DNA of 64,000 nt from Oligoflexia bacterium (GTDB lineage Bacteria; Bdellovibrionota; UBA1018), in NCBI GenBank assembly GCA_014378465.1, contig JACMNQ010000010.1, forward strand, positions 1-64,000, read 5' to 3'. Under the pieces are notes generated by a model, which saw only the letters and a list, made by a program, of their open reading frames with translations, was not told where the DNA came from and did no database searches. Each line of letters opens with the position of its first letter. The stretch's first letter is position 1. Positions 14,103 to 39,627 of this stretch are shown here, in pieces. The position numbers were made by a program, and so were the translations under genes.

Positions 14103-14224
14103 CCGGGGCAAGAGAGCTTTTTGCCGAGATCGGGCCGAAATGTCCTAATCCGCTGACATCAGGCAGTTTGTGCCGGGCAGAAACGTTTGGCATGGGAGAA
14201 GCTGTCAAAGGCCTGACGTCGTTC

Positions 14225-26679: not shown

Positions 26680-27117
26680 TTATCTCCCGATTTCCAAAGC
26701 TTTTTGAGCCATGGCTTTTGCCGCATTCATCGCTGTGATATTGGCTTCATAGGATCTTTGCGCGCTGATCATGTTGGCCATCTCTTCGACCGTATTGATG
26801 TTTGGCATCGCCACGTACCCTTCTTCATTCGCATCCGGATGGGAGGGGTTGTAGACCATGCGTGGCGGGCGCTGATCTTCGACGATCTCCTGAACCTGCA
26901 CGCCCTGGACGTTCTCGTCGAGCTTGTTCTCGAGGATCTCGCCGAAGCTTTCGCGGTCGGTTTCGGCCGCGAACATCGGATCCTTGCGCTTGTAGGGTCC
27001 GCCCTCTTCCGTGCGCGTGGTTTCGGCATTCGCGATATTGCTTGAAATGGTGTTCATGCGCTTGGTCTGCGCATCGAGTCCGGAAGCACTCACTCTCATG
27101 GATGAAAAGAAATCCAT
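26680..27117 (-). CDS. flgC: Flagellar rod protein FlgC
   Basis: MRVSASGLDAQTKRMNTISSNIANAETTRTEEGGPYKRKDP. Confidence 0.96.
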   Translation of the reverse strand: MDFFSSMRVSASGLDAQTKRMNTISSNIANAETTRTEEGGPYKRKDPMFAAETDRESFGEILENKLDENVQGVQVQEIVEDQRPPRMVYNPSHPDANEEGYVAMPNINTVEEMANMISAQRSYEANITAMNAAKAMAQKALEIGR

Positions 27118-27527
27118 TAACGATTACCCCCGCCTTCAGAAATCGCGTACTTGAGCATGCCGAGCTTCTTCTTGATCATTTCAGTCGAAGCATCATAAAG
27201 GAGCTGATTTTCGGCGAGTTTCGCCATTTCACTGGAGCGATCCACGGTGTTGCCATCCAGGGACTCGACGCCGTTCGGATCGTCATAGATGTCAGGATTC
27301 ACGGGATCGGTCATCTTGTGCACGATGTGATGGGCATTGTCCCCTTCCATCGGGAGCTTGCCATCGACCGCGAGAGCCTCGCGAAGTGCACCTTCGAATT
27401 CGACGGCCTTGGCCTTGTAGCCCGGGGTGTCCGCATTGGCGATGTTGGAACTGATCACGCCCTGATTGGTCAGGCGAAGATTCAGTGAAGTGTTCAGTGC
27501 GCCGATGATGGGATCAAAACCACTCAT
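27117..27527 (-). CDS. flgB: Flagellar rod protein FlgB
   Basis: LNLRLTNQGVISSNIANADTPGYKAKAVEFEGALR; start chosen at MSGFDP. Confidence 0.95.
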   Translation of the reverse strand: MSGFDPIIGALNTSLNLRLTNQGVISSNIANADTPGYKAKAVEFEGALREALAVDGKLPMEGDNAHHIVHKMTDPVNPDIYDDPNGVESLDGNTVDRSSEMAKLAENQLLYDASTEMIKKKLGMLKYAISEGGGNR

Positions 27528-27577: not shown

Positions 27578-27593
27578 TTCAAGGAATATGCCG
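27578..27593 (-). promoter_or_regulatory. Weak candidate sigma-54 promoter upstream of flgB
   Basis: Minus strand CGGCAT-attcc-TTGAA vs TGGCAC-N5-TTGCA; -12 is GA rather than GC. Confidence 0.28.
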
Positions 27594-27762
27594 CTCTGCC
27601 GATGAGTCCCGCGCGACTGTTTTCTCAAACTGCACTTCTCCACTTTTCCGCCCTTTTCCTTCGTCTTATGAGCGGTTTTCCGCTCGTCTGTCAATTCTAC
27701 TCTCAAATTTTCAGCTCAGCAAATTCGGCTCGGTCAAAACCGGCACTCGGTCACAATGATCA

Positions 27763-27804
27763 GGCAGAAACTTCCGCTCCAGAGGATTACGGGAAGTTTC
27801 TGCC
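27763..27804. promoter_or_regulatory. Perfect 13-bp inverted repeat GGCAGAAACTTCC / GGAAGTTTCTGCC
   Basis: Read directly; 16-nt spacer; an outer GATCAG/CTGATC also pairs; between flgB and the sigma-54 activator. Confidence 0.85.
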
Positions 27805-27828
27805 GACCTTCTGATCAAGAACCGGAAC

Positions 27829-28824
27829 TCAGACGTTGATGCCGTCGCGACGGTAGTCCGCGAGCTTGTTTCTGAGAGTGCGGATGGAAATCCCAAGCGC
27901 TTTGGCGGTATGGGTACGATTGCCGGAGTGATAGGTCAAGGCGGTCAGGATCACGCTCTTCTCGATGTCATTGAGAGTGTTGCCTGGCGCCCAGCCGGTG
28001 GAATCGAGCTTGGCCGCGGAATCGCCCGCAAGAATGTCGAAACTTGCGGCCGCGCCGCCCAGCTTTGCACTATGGCGACGCTCAATGTAGATGTCCTTTC
28101 CACAGACGAGGCCGTCGTGGGCGGTGATGATCGCACGTTCGATCACGTTTTCGAGTTCACGGATGTTGCCGGGCCAGGTGTGCATTTCAAGAATCTGAAG
28201 AGCTTCCGGAGTCATGCCGGAAAGAGTCTTGCCGTTATTTTCCGCGTACGAGTTCATGAAGTGCTCGGCGACGAGCTTCACGTCGCCCAGGCGTTCACGA
28301 AGTGGAGGCATGTTCAGATTGACCACGTTGAGGCGATAGAACAGGTCTTCTCTGAAAGTTCCGTCCTTCACGCAGTCAGACAGATTGCGGTTCGTGGTGG
28401 CAATGATGCGGACATCGACCGGGATCGGCTTGCGGCCACCGATGCGATCAACTTCGCCTTCCTGAATCACGCGCAGGAGTTTGGCCTGGAGGCGGATGTC
28501 CATTTCGGAAACTTCATCCAGAAGCAGGGTTCCGCCGTTCGCGAATTCGAACTTGCCGGCTTTGCTGCTGACCGCGCCGGTGAAAGCGCCTCGTTCGTAA
28601 CCGAAGAGTTCGGATTCCAGGAGATTCTCCGGAATGGCCGCGCAGTTGATGGCCACAAAAGGCTTGCCGGAACGATTGCTGCTGTTGTGAACGAGGCTCG
28701 CCATGAGCTCTTTTCCAGTGCCGCTTTCTCCCTGAATCAGAACAGTGGCCTTGCTCGCAGCCACGGTTTTCGCCAATTGAACCAATTCCTGCATTCTACG
28801 ATCCGACGTAATCATCTCACTCAT
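27829..28824 (-). CDS. Sigma-54-dependent activator (AAA+ plus Fis-type HTH), no receiver domain
   Basis: [34 protein letters not shown] (GAFTGA loop); C-terminal [31 protein letters not shown]. Confidence 0.93.
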
Positions 28825-31790
28825 TTGCTACCGCCCTCCTTGGCAGTTTTAGAACCCGACTGACCCGCTCCCGCCAACGTTCTATTGGCGAGTTTCTTCC
28901 AAAAATCATCAACCTTGCTTTCGGCCAGCCTTTTCAGAATGACCTGAATCTCTTTCTTCTCTGCCCGATCCGGACCCGATTTTCCCAGAGTTCTTGCGTA
29001 TTCGTACAGAGCCTGGTTGCCGCCCAGGCCCGAATCAATCGCTTTTCCATAAGCATCCGCGGCTTCGCCCCAGTGCCCCTGCTTCGAGAGCAGTTCGCCT
29101 TCGGACATCAGCAGCTCTTCTGGAGCGGCCACTGATGAAACTCCCAGATGCGCTGCCGTGTCCGCTGCCGAATTCCGAAGCTCCGCGGTGAGCCTGATTT
29201 TCTGCAGTCTGCGCAGACCTTCGACCGCGAGTCCGATTTCGCCAGCCTGAGCCTGCAGGGTCGTGACCCAACTTTCAATTCTGGCCTTCTCCCCCTTCAA
29301 CGCCGAAGCGGGAAGAAGAAATTGTGCCTTTGCCGCATGACTGAGCGCTGAAGCGGCCGAACCGGTTCCCGCTGCCTTCATGTCCAGCAGTCCCAAAATG
29401 ATTTCACGCTCGTAGGAAAAAGGCGACTCCGCAATCACGTCCGCCATGCATTCTCTGATTTTCTGTTCGACCTTCACACCAGATCGCATCCAGAGTGCTT
29501 TGCCTTCGGTGAATCGTTCTTCAGATTTCTTCAAGCGAAGATCGAGATCCTGATTGTGCTCCGAAGCCAGGCCGCGTTCACTGCCCATCTGTTTCTGGTG
29601 ATCCTTGAATTCGTCGGAAATTTTCTGAGCCACGCTTCCAAGGCCGAGATCACTGGCGGCCTGAGAGAGCTTGAGGAGGTAATCCGGGGACAGGGATGCT
29701 TCCGTGCCGGCTTCCGGAACGCCGATGAGTTTCGGAATGGATCTTGCCTTCTGGTCGTAGAAACTGAGCGCTTCGTACTTCTTGCCCTGATCCAGCAGAG
29801 ACATCAGCGTGTTTCTGAAAAGATGCCGCAGGATCTGACCGATGGTTTCGCGGGCCGAAGCGTTGGAAGCTTTTTCGAATTCCTGAATTGCGACATCGAC
29901 TGCATTGAGCGAATCCCCGAACGCGATCAGTGTTCTGATACGGCTGAGCGCACGGAAGTCGTTATAGTGCTTCGTATCGACTTCCTCCTTGGGATCAAAT
30001 TTTTCCGCTTCCTCGGTGAAAAAGCTCTTTGCAGTTCCGAGATCAAAACCACCGTGATCCGCACACTGTGCCAGACGTGCCCGTGCGAGCGTCGCTCCCG
30101 GACTGAACGGAAAGCCGTTGATCGTCTGATAGAACCACTTGCGAGATTCAAGGGCGGCCTGAGCGCCCTCTCTTCTGCCCGTGATTTCGGCCAACCTCAG
30201 AGTCGCTCTCCAGCCAGCGGGATTCCCCGCGTAGTCCTTCAGAAACTCCGTGAAAGCCGTCTCGGCCCGATCGTTCTGTCCGAGCCAGTAGAGGGCTTCA
30301 GCACGATTCAGGTGAATCGACGGAAACTTCCTGGCTTCTCCCCTGAATCCCGCCATCGCCTGGTAATAGGAGGCAAGTGCGCGGTCGTACTGGGAGCGAC
30401 TCATGAAGATGTCACCCAGCCGCAGGGCGCCTTCGGCTTTGTAGCGGGCTTCCGGAGCGTTGGCGGCGATCCACTGGTATTCCTTCGCCGCGCGGTCACC
30501 CTGCTTGAGCGCGTACAGTTCTTCAGCTGCCGCCATGTGAAAGACCCAGTTCAGGCGATGAGTCGGATACCGATTCATCAGCCAGAGGTAACTTTCGAGG
30601 GTCGCGAGGTGGGAACCTTCAAGACGCTTCTGGTTCGCGAGGTAGAGAGCGGAATGCAGAGAAATCGCGGAACCCGAATACTGGGTTTTGATTTCTTCCA
30701 GCATCTGGAGTCCGGCGTCCCTGAACGACTTCTCGGTGGTTCCAAGCTTCAGGAGACTGTTCGCTCTCAGAAATTTCATTTCTTTCTGGTAGGCCGACTT
30801 TGGCTGCTCAGCCGTGAAGAAGTCGAGCGTCTTCAGCACGAGTGCGAATTTGCCCTTGCGATAGAGATCCAGCGCCAGACGAACGAAACGCGCTTCTTCG
30901 GCCCGGCTGGTGGCTCGAGCGAAGTTTTCCGTGTCCGCGGACTCTTCGGAATCAGCCCCCTCGACTTCGGCCGCTTTCTCCGTCGGCGGTTCATAATAGG
31001 AGTAGTTGGCATCGGGAGTCGTGGCTGCAAACCATTTGTCAAAATCAAACGCTTCATGAAGCGGGTTGAAAGCAAGAAAGATATCCTTGTCTTCGCTCAG
31101 GGGCTGTTCACAGAACTTCTGGATGTTCAGCGCATCAGCCTTGGCTTTTTCGCTGGCGATCTTGCGGTCCGTGCGACGCTTGATCTGATCTCCCTGATCT
31201 TTCTGATGGGCGGCTGTCAATTCATGCTTGCGGAGTTCGCGCAGCTCAGAGACGGTCGGACCCGCTTTGGGCCAGAAGTCGACGATGAAGCGCGCTGGAG
31301 ATTTCTCCCGGTACTCAAAGCGCTCCATCCTGGGATGGGCCGGGGCCTGATCCCCTTTGGGGAACTTCCACTTTCCGACCACCTTCAGGCCCGCACCGGA
31401 TTCCTGGAATCGCACTTCAGCCAGACGAGCATCCTTCAGGGTGGGCAGAATCTGGGAAAGCCAGGCTGACTCCTGGCCAATCGGAGCACCCAGGTCCGCG
31501 AGGCTGGAGCCTTTGAGAAACAGTTCGAAACCGTCGCCAGTCTCCTTCCACTGAGAATCGACTCCCAGATCGACCGCGAGGACAAGACGGCTATGAGTCT
31601 TGAAAGTGAGGAGCTGGATGGACTGTGTGGAATTTTCAGCCGCGTGAGCCCGAGGAGTGTCAGAAAGGGTCCCCAAAAGGACACCGGCGGCAGTTCCGAA
31701 AGCCACAGGGCCGGCAACGGACAATGACTGTCCAGCGAGTGCCGTCACCGAGACCGCTACGAGAATGATGGAATCTGACTTAAGTTTCAA
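28821..31790 (-). CDS. Large exported TPR-repeat protein with an N-terminal AMIN-like region
   Basis: Signal peptide; multiple TPR-like helices ([53 protein letters not shown]). Confidence 0.8.
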
Positions 31791-31875
31791 ATGAGCATCC
31801 TGCTCTACACGGTTCGATCAGTTCACTTTGCCTTGCTCCCGTCCTCATGACGAGGGCTCGACGCTACAAGACAAA

Positions 31876-31890
31876 GCAAGTGCAGTGCCA
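31876..31890 (-). promoter_or_regulatory. Sigma-54 (-24/-12) promoter of the TPR-activator operon
   Basis: Minus strand TGGCAC-TGCAC-TTGC, an exact consensus match, about 85 nt upstream of the CDS. Confidence 0.82.
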
Positions 31891-32188
31891 AACGCACGAT
31901 TTAATTTTCGAGGGCTGGGAATTCCCGCCAGGAGCGTCGTTTCAACCGGCAGAAGTTTCCGATGATGTTCATCTTTTACCTACTACTCGGTGAATGCCGC
32001 CCTCCACATTTCTGCCGATCCCGAAATCACCGTGGGCAAAAGAAACCTACAACTTTTTGACCCACCGTCAGGAAGACTACGGTTTCCGCCCGTTGTTTGA
32101 CGATCTCGAGCTCGATTCGACTTCTCAACGGGAGCTTTTTATTTTGTCCCCAATTCAATGAGGCTGAGCTACATTCAGAGGCATCACC

Positions 32189-32806
32189 ATGATCAGAACC
32201 GGATTCTCTCACTCTTCACTGCGTTTTCTGCCTCGCCTTGCTCTGGCGCTTCTGAGCGTGAGCTCTCTGACCCAATTGACCGCCTGTGGTCTGTTGGTCG
32301 GAAACATCAAGCCTGTCGACGAGAAGAACAAAGACTACCGGGTCATGGATCTTGCCAAGGCCAATCCGGACTGGAAGCGCCTTGAGCCGGTCGTGTCTGC
32401 CAATCCCGATGAGCAGAGCGATGTGAAAAAGAACAAGGAAGCCTTCGCGGCCGAGACTTCCGACGTTTCATTCCAATCCGAAAAGACCGCCTCAATCATC
32501 TCGATGAATACGGCATGCCGTGAACGCCGGGCGGACGATAGCAATCTGAAGGCGATTTCCAACCAGCTTCTGCTTGGCATTGCTGACGTCACTCAGCGGG
32601 ATGAGAAGCAGATCCAGATTCAGGGAGTTCCCGCACTGGAGACGACCATTCGCGGCAAGCTCAATGGTGAGCCGATGGCTCTGAAGACGCTGGTCGTCCA
32701 TCAGGACATCTGTGTCTACGACCTGATGTATATTGCCCGGCCAGAGCATTTCGACGCACAAGTGGCCGACTTCGACCGCTTTGCCTCTTCACTGCGACTC
32801 AAGTGA
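32189..32806 (+). CDS. Predicted lipoprotein of unknown function upstream of the MCE transporter genes
   Basis: N-terminal signal with lipobox-like LTAC. Confidence 0.7.
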   Translation: MIRTGFSHSSLRFLPRLALALLSVSSLTQLTACGLLVGNIKPVDEKNKDYRVMDLAKANPDWKRLEPVVSANPDEQSDVKKNKEAFAAETSDVSFQSEKTASIISMNTACRERRADDSNLKAISNQLLLGIADVTQRDEKQIQIQGVPALETTIRGKLNGEPMALKTLVVHQDICVYDLMYIARPEHFDAQVADFDRFASSLRLK

Positions 32807-38544: not shown

Positions 38545-39627
38545 TCAGATATCGATCATGTTTCCGCCGTGATTCGGAGTCAGACCTGGAATGTTCAGGA
38601 GCTCTTCTTCACGTTTGTTGGCAGGGATGATCATTCCACGCTTGCGGAGCTTTTCCACCAGGGTCGTGCGATTCATCTGCAACAGTTCACTTGCACGATT
38701 CTTGTTGTTGCTCGTGCGAGTCAGGGCCTGGTCAATCAGGTGATTTTCAAAAGCGGCGACGATCGTCTTGAGATCGAGTCCGGCAGTCGGAAGCACCATG
38801 CGGGGAAATTCAGAACCGGAAAGTGAATCCGCGCCAGCTGGGCGGCTTTCAGCGAACTGCTGAAAGATGCGGTGAGGAAGATCACCGAGATCCACACTGC
38901 CCTGACCCTTGAGGATCACGAGGCGTTCCATGAGGTTTTCGAGCTCACGGATGTTTCCGGGCCAGCTGTAGGCCAGAAGCGCGTCCATGATTTCGCCGGT
39001 GGGAGCTTCGACGGTGTAGCTGTTCTTTTCGTTGAACTGCTTCACGAAGTGATTCACGAAAAGAGGAATGTCAGACTGGCGCTCACGAAGTGAAGGCACT
39101 TTCATCGGAATGACATTGAGTCTGTAGTAAAGGTCTTCGCGGAATTCGCGATTGGCGACGGCAGCTTCGAGATCGCGGTTCGTTGCAGCGATGATGCGAA
39201 CGTCGACTTCAATGGTTTTCGAAGATCCGACATTTTCGAAACTGCGGGTCTGAAGAACACGCAGGAGTTTGACCTGAAGCTGAAGCGGCAATTCGCCGAC
39301 TTCGTCCAGAAACAGGGTTCCGCCGTGAGCCAGTTCAAAACGTCCCTGGCGATTGGCGGTGGCGCCGGTGAAAGCACCTTTCACATGGCCGAAAAGCTCA
39401 GCTTCGAGAAGCTCAGCCGGGATGGCACCACAGTTGACAGTCACCAATGGGCGGCTGGCACGTGGGGAGTTTTCGTGGATGGCCCGAGCGATCAGTTCTT
39501 TTCCGGTACCGCTTTCACCGGTGATCAAGACGGTGCTGTCGGTCTGTGAGACCTTTTCAATCGTCTTGAAAATACTTTGAAACGCTGGACTCTCACCTAC
39601 CAAAGGCGTACGAAATGCGAGCATCAA
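38545..39627 (-). CDS. Second sigma-54-dependent activator lacking a receiver domain
   Basis: [43 protein letters not shown]-terminal Fis-like [27 protein letters not shown]. Confidence 0.92.

Follow-up and report, generated by a model that had tools for sequence, protein, structure and literature searches.

The locus analysed here, lying within a stretch of 64,000 nucleotides (the window), places a gene for a sigma-54 activator directly ahead of a row of flagellar genes and behind a promoter flanked by a short inverted repeat. The question thus raised is which protein acts through that repeat, and whether the activator encoded by the operon drives its own transcription together with that of its flagellar neighbours. 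To organize the answer, the features discussed below are summarized in Table 1.

Table 1. Positions and properties of the features of the TPR-activator-flgB region in the window
Feature	Position	Strand	Remarks
Sigma-54 promoter TGGCAC-TGCAC-TTGC(T)	31876..31890	-	window sequence; conserved in relatives
Full 15-bp dyad, CGGAAACTTCTGCCG on the minus strand	31947..31961		proposed activator-binding enhancer site; top matrix match
Half-site CGGCAGAA, read as TTTCTGCCG	32009..32017		farther upstream; 5.5 bits as full site
TPR protein ORF	28821..31790	-	989 aa, signal-peptide-like start, TTG start codon, first gene of the operon
Sigma-54 activator ORF	27829..28824	-	331 aa, AAA+ plus Fis-type HTH, receiver domain absent
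GAFTGA loop codons (residues 79-84)	28573..28590	-	deleted in family f5
Activator core segment (residues 301-321)	27862..27924	-	nearly invariant across families f1-f6
Motif copy CGGAAGTTTCTGCCT	27762..27776	-	activator-flgB intergenic region, 16.9 bits
Second, inverted motif copy GGGAAGTTTCTGCCG	27791..27805	+	activator-flgB intergenic region, 12.9 bits
Sigma-54-like element CGGCATATTCCTTGAA, GGCAT-N5-TTGAA (-12 variant)	27578..27593	-	about 54 bp upstream of flgB ATG
flgB (from likely ATG)	27117..27524	-	head of the flgBC-fliEFGHI operon

The TPR-activator operon and its promoter

The first ORF of the operon (28821-31790) was matched by TPR domains of Pfam, and the TPR protein was matched in all of the 57 other genomes searched (57/57). 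Its end overlaps the start of the activator ORF by 4 bases, and the activator is followed on the same strand by flgB, flgC, fliE, fliF, fliG, fliH, and fliI, in this order. The order TPR, activator, flgB was kept wherever the contig permitted the check, one f2 genome carrying an insert before flgB.

Upstream of the operon, TGGCACTGCACTTGCT at 31890..31875 of the minus strand was found to be a perfect -24/-12 promoter, in which GG at -24 and GC at -12 stand 10 bases apart and satisfy the sigma-54 geometry (31890-31876), at a distance of 86 bp from the TTG start of the TPR ORF. The pattern TGGCAC-N5-TTGC occurs once in the window as compared with 0.14 occurrences expected, the expectation per 400-bp one-strand intergenic stretch being 0.0004. 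In addition, the -24/-12 element was present upstream of the TPR orthologue in every readable member of family f1, where it takes the form TGGCAY-N5-TTGCT in all readable orthologues but L066 (TGGCCC), and it was also found in families f4 and f6; RpoN was encoded as a single copy in each of the 38 genomes (38/38). The initial annotation had described a consensus-perfect sigma-54 promoter ahead of this operon, and both the sequence match and the conservation in relatives confirmed this description, all of the sequences it named having been located where it had placed them. As far as sequence allows, the sigma-54 promoter of the TPR operon is thus shown to be real and conserved. Farther upstream, a second conserved block, GTCAAA-N~24-CTGACG-N4-GTCAAAA on the TPR strand, was observed at 32040-32110 and in the upstream regions of L091-L113, and may act as the regulatory region of the gene diverging at 32189.

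A 15-bp dyad shared by flagellar promoters

An expectation-maximization (EM) search without prior motif, performed on 29 orthologous TPR upstream regions of 170 bp, yielded CGGAAAYTTCTGCCG with a score of 152-157, as compared with 72 (sd 4.3, max 80.7) in 25 dinucleotide shuffles, and the same motif was recovered when this genome was left out of the training. The motif suggested by the initial annotation is therefore kept in the orthologous intergenic regions. Its consensus is CGGMANNTTCTGCCG, with the half-site CGGCAGA; dyad symmetry is evident in the outer bases (CGG-N9-CCG), and relatives also have perfect dyads, for instance CGGCAGATTCTGCCG. Within f1 the site upstream of the TPR gene varies from perfect copies to ones that can hardly be recognised, and its spacing from the promoter is not constant.

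When a matrix built from the other genomes was applied, the best match in the 64 kb was 31947-31961 (reading CGGCAGAAGTTTCCG), at 20.4 bits, followed by 16.9 bits at 27762; the best match occupies the stretch 57-71 bp ahead of the -24 element. Of the two upstream sites previously placed in enhancer position, this one stood as a full site, but that at 32009-32017 proved to be a half-site only (5.5 bits). Similarly, among the variants noted at other flagellar intergenic regions, the 27762-27805 pair was strong, whereas 14176-14189 reached only 4.2 bits, a slightly better site overlapping it at 14161 (9.5 bits).

For independent prediction, a matrix trained on the TPR upstream regions only was then applied elsewhere, with a site threshold of at least 12 bits. 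The activator-flgB intergenic regions (n = 23) contained 21 such sites versus 0.32 in shuffles (combined p 1e-22), corresponding to a density of 5.4 per kb where the surrounding 443 kb have 0.14 per kb, and the flgF upstream regions contained 18 sites versus 0.68 expected (p 3.5e-10). In most genomes the motif lies on both flanks of the TPR-activator operon, and three flagellar promoters, those of the TPR operon, flgB, and flgF, share the dyad. In this genome flgF is located on another contig, with the copy CGGAAAGTTTTGCCC at G000:C45:13738 between flgF and a divergent folD-like gene. Upstream of fliL, strong sites were seen in few genomes only, the window site being weak. A role of the motif as a functional DNA site is strongly supported. 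Chance resemblance among short GC-rich words, to which the 25 occurrences of the 7-base GGCAGAA in the window might be thought to point, is contradicted by the shuffle controls and by the sites predicted independently in two further sets of promoters, and is extremely improbable.

The two copies between the activator and flgB call for separate consideration, inasmuch as the 27762/27791 pair of the window folds as a strong RNA hairpin (z -6.7), and a strong hairpin with differing arm sequences follows right after the activator stop (27740-27830 and orthologous regions) in about 13 of 22 relatives; these two copies may thus have a second role. That they serve as the two arms of a hairpin in the intercistronic RNA and not as DNA sites is nevertheless unlikely. 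Neither a T-run nor a terminator call was found at the window hairpin (27740-27830), the copies are inverted, direct, or single depending on the genome, and the matrix from the divergent intergenic TPR upstream region fits the activator-flgB copies 39 times above background. Furthermore, a hairpin would leave the TPR and flgF upstream sites unexplained; in this genome these sites lie between divergent genes, so that the objection is not applicable to them. The RNA hairpin and DNA-site roles of the activator-flgB copies may also coexist. Many other intergenic CGGCA-N5-TGCCG dyads, which follow or separate genes, may represent terminator or other hairpins, and the recurrent AGGAAATTTCTGCCG was rejected as a regulatory site, being coding in this genome (DKEISAG reading frame) and assumed to be coding in relatives.

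No canonical sigma-54 element was found in the activator-flgB region, which instead contains a conserved GGCAT-N4-CTTGAA, present in a looser form before flgB in 13 genomes. Across 35 genomes, GGCATNNNACTTGAA gave 23 exact matches versus 3 for reversed-pattern controls, and flgB was its sole recurrent context; it was rejected as a general promoter, the contexts other than flgB looking unrelated, and a second RpoN behind the TTGAA variant was excluded by the one RpoN per genome. With its sigma-54 geometry and TTGA replacing TTGC, the flgB element is a candidate sigma-54 promoter. On the strand opposite to this element, several of its copies fit a FliA-type promoter, TCAAG-N16-CCGATR (27578-27610; L092, L099, L103, L107, and L112). 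It is possible that this promoter would read back across the enhancer pair into the activator gene, providing late negative feedback.

The neighbouring activator as the likely owner of the dyad

The gene following the TPR ORF had been annotated as a sigma-54 activator, which was corroborated by Pfam matches to the sigma-54 interaction domain (PF00158, E 4.6e-73), the AAA+ lid, and a C-terminal Fis-type HTH (HTH_8, residues 284-324), together with the presence of Walker A, Walker B, and GAFTGA. This HTH is nearly invariant between families, as is the motif. The top NCBIfam match was FlbD (NF050807), with 445.5 bits over profile positions 118-445, which falls short of the equivalog cut-off of 750 bits. 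No receiver domain was found by Pfam, and the FlbD profile match begins at position 118; the protein is thus FlbD-like without a receiver. Its closest solved structures are ZraR, NtrC1, and FlrC. A second sigma-54 activator is encoded in the window at 38545-39627 (360 aa, no receiver domain match), 7 kb from the TPR-operon activator and 43% identical to it.

In the proposed mechanism, the 27829-28824 product would bind the 15-bp dyad as a dimer via its Fis-type HTH and, from 31947-31961, would contact sigma-54 RNA polymerase at 31890-31876. Transcription of the TPR-activator operon would thereby be driven in a positive autoregulatory loop, and the activator would use the further dyad copies at the flgB and flgF operons. 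Autoregulation is the best reading of these data, given that promoter and motif are both conserved and that the motif recurs at other flagellar promoters and goes together with the activator locus. The neighbouring activator probably owns the dyad and would drive its own operon, by positive autoregulation, as well as flgB and flgF. The elements with their positions and conservation, the domains of the activator, and the correlated losses are shown directly, and from them we infer the binding by the 27829-28824 product rather than by another protein, the sign of the regulation, and the transcription starts.

The scope of the dyad was also assessed genome-wide, by pattern searches. This genome contains about 31 intergenic TGGCNY-N5-TTGC promoters (all of the searched sites except three near contig ends were inspected for the motif). 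The proteins encoded behind them mostly begin with a signal peptide or a lipoprotein start, and a strong motif copy was seen upstream of the TPR promoter alone. The co-occurrence with TGGCAC-N5-TTGC that the initial annotation proposed to look for throughout the genome was thus not observed, 1 of about 31 intergenic sites carrying the motif, and the motif was ruled out as a general companion of sigma-54 promoters. This distribution makes it a marker of flagellar promoters, not of sigma-54 promoters generally. The about 30 motif-free intergenic sigma-54-type promoters (G000 loci L001-L030, L164-L180, and L237-L256) mostly precede genes whose products are exported or are lipoproteins. A large regulon was likewise rejected on pattern counts, 133 matches with at most 1 mismatch being found versus 100 reversed controls in 35 genomes; that strong genome-wide matches are few and barely above the reversed control counts against the proposed mechanism, as do the variability of the f1 site and the capacity of the activator-flgB copies to fold as RNA.

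Sister families, rival regulators, and known flagellar systems

In the activator orthologues of family f5 (eight genomes; L117-L121 and L125-L127), neither the GAFTGA loop nor the L2 region is present and the Walker-B Asp is replaced, yet their HTH is nearly identical to that of the other families; in L127, parts of the loop region remain, though not GAFTGA. A sigma-54 element was absent from the f5 TPR promoter in 8/8 genomes and from the f5 flgF promoter in the 5/5 genomes read there. GGCAGAWTCTGCC or CGGCA-N5-TGCCG-like copies persist in several f5 members, and in our reading the dyad of the f5 TPR operon would lie in the spacer of a sigma-70-like promoter, TTGNNN-N18-CACAAT. The coincidence between the loss of the sigma-54 loops of the activator and the loss of the sigma-54 elements supports the proposed mechanism; as f5 is one clade, the loop loss may be a single event and hence one data point. 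In contrast, family f3 counts against the mechanism in that it keeps GAFTGA even though the sigma-54 element is gone from its TPR promoter, that of flgF being kept.

The other activators of the genome, such as the one at 38545-39627, also count against ownership by the neighbouring activator, and the dyad might be the operator of such a different regulator, which would then coordinate these promoters while the neighbouring activator acts elsewhere. We regard this as quite unlikely, given that the dyad occurs on both sides of the TPR-activator operon in most genomes, that the activator HTH and the motif are conserved together, that the loss of the sigma-54 loops of this very activator accompanies the loss of sigma-54 elements, and that about 30 other intergenic sigma-54 promoters lack the motif.

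Caulobacter FlbD acts through short ftr sites at flagellar promoters, which it both activates and represses (PMC3930126, PMC3096577), and it represses fliF through ftr4 (PMC3930126). By analogy, the window activator could mainly repress through the dyad and limit its own expression, as FlbD does on fliF; the dual action of FlbD via ftr sites (PMC3930126) and the position of the dyad within a sigma-70-like promoter in f5 and f3 would fit a repressor. The f1 site, however, lies upstream of and not over the sigma-54 promoter, a class needing an activator, and flgF is arranged likewise, which renders a mainly repressive role very unlikely. Returning to autoregulation by the neighbouring activator, the protein resembles FlbD as a flagellar sigma-54 activator type with AAA+ and Fis-type HTH domains and candidate short sites at flagellar promoters, but differs from it in lacking a receiver, in scoring below the 750-bit cut-off, and in having its own operon with a sigma-54 promoter and site. 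It also shares the AAA+ core of the FlrC/FleQ/FlgR type, FlrC being among its closest solved structures. FlrC and FlgR, unlike the window activator, have receiver domains and partner kinases, and FlgR is not known to need upstream sites.

Families f3, f4, and f6 conserve GGCAYGCCGATTGCT or a closely similar sequence at the flgF promoter, as does f1 apart from two exceptions. T[CA]AAG, exact or with one mismatch, precedes CCGATT by exactly 16 bases in 15 genomes of these four families, the chance of a match of at least 4/5 to T[CA]AAG at a fixed place being 0.04. A FliA promoter and a sigma-54 promoter (GGCAY-N5-TTGC) thus interleave at flgF (loci G000:C45:13738-14004 and L291-L319). FliA-type sites were enriched in nine genomes (56 versus 15 controls); at the flgF of this genome, the FliA boxes were lost and GGCAC-N5-TTGC was kept. 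FliA (sigma-28) promoters of Bdellovibrio have the form TTAAG-N16-CCGATA (PMC3627812), which the T[CA]AAG-N16-CCGATT of the clade's flgF promoters resembles, with the difference that the latter boxes interleave with the sigma-54 element GGCAY-N5-TTGC.

Activators devoid of GAFTGA that work at sigma-70 promoters are exemplified by NtrC of Caulobacter and Rhodobacter and by VspR of V. cholerae (PMC10274813). The f5 orthologue is similar to these in its deleted L1 loop, its retained HTH, and its sigma-70-like target promoter, and dissimilar in being a flagellar activator, in having also lost the L2 loop and the Walker-B Asp, and in that two loci show the change of promoter. We tentatively propose, as a scenario that is possible although somewhat short of even odds, that the flagellar activator has been rewired in this order of bacteria. 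In one family the loops that contact sigma-54, along with the Walker-B Asp, would have disappeared while the HTH and its sites were kept, the targets passing from sigma-54 to sigma-70 with the dyad in the spacer; in other families, a superimposed FliA/sigma-54 promoter at flgF and a backward FliA-type promoter from flgB into the activator gene could allow FliA to share and then shut down the targets of the activator.

Control of flagellar genes by FlbD-type proteins through short sites is already known; less usual are the interleaving at the flgF promoter and the apparent rewiring in the sister family. Flagellar regulons are poorly mapped beyond the classical models, and here sequence alone sufficed to name a short dyad and its likely owner, with three promoters as targets and f5 as a natural loss-of-function control. 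The regulatory logic of the dyad and the activator is directly testable, and f5 is a clear example of a sigma-54 activator seemingly switched to a different polymerase with its sites retained.
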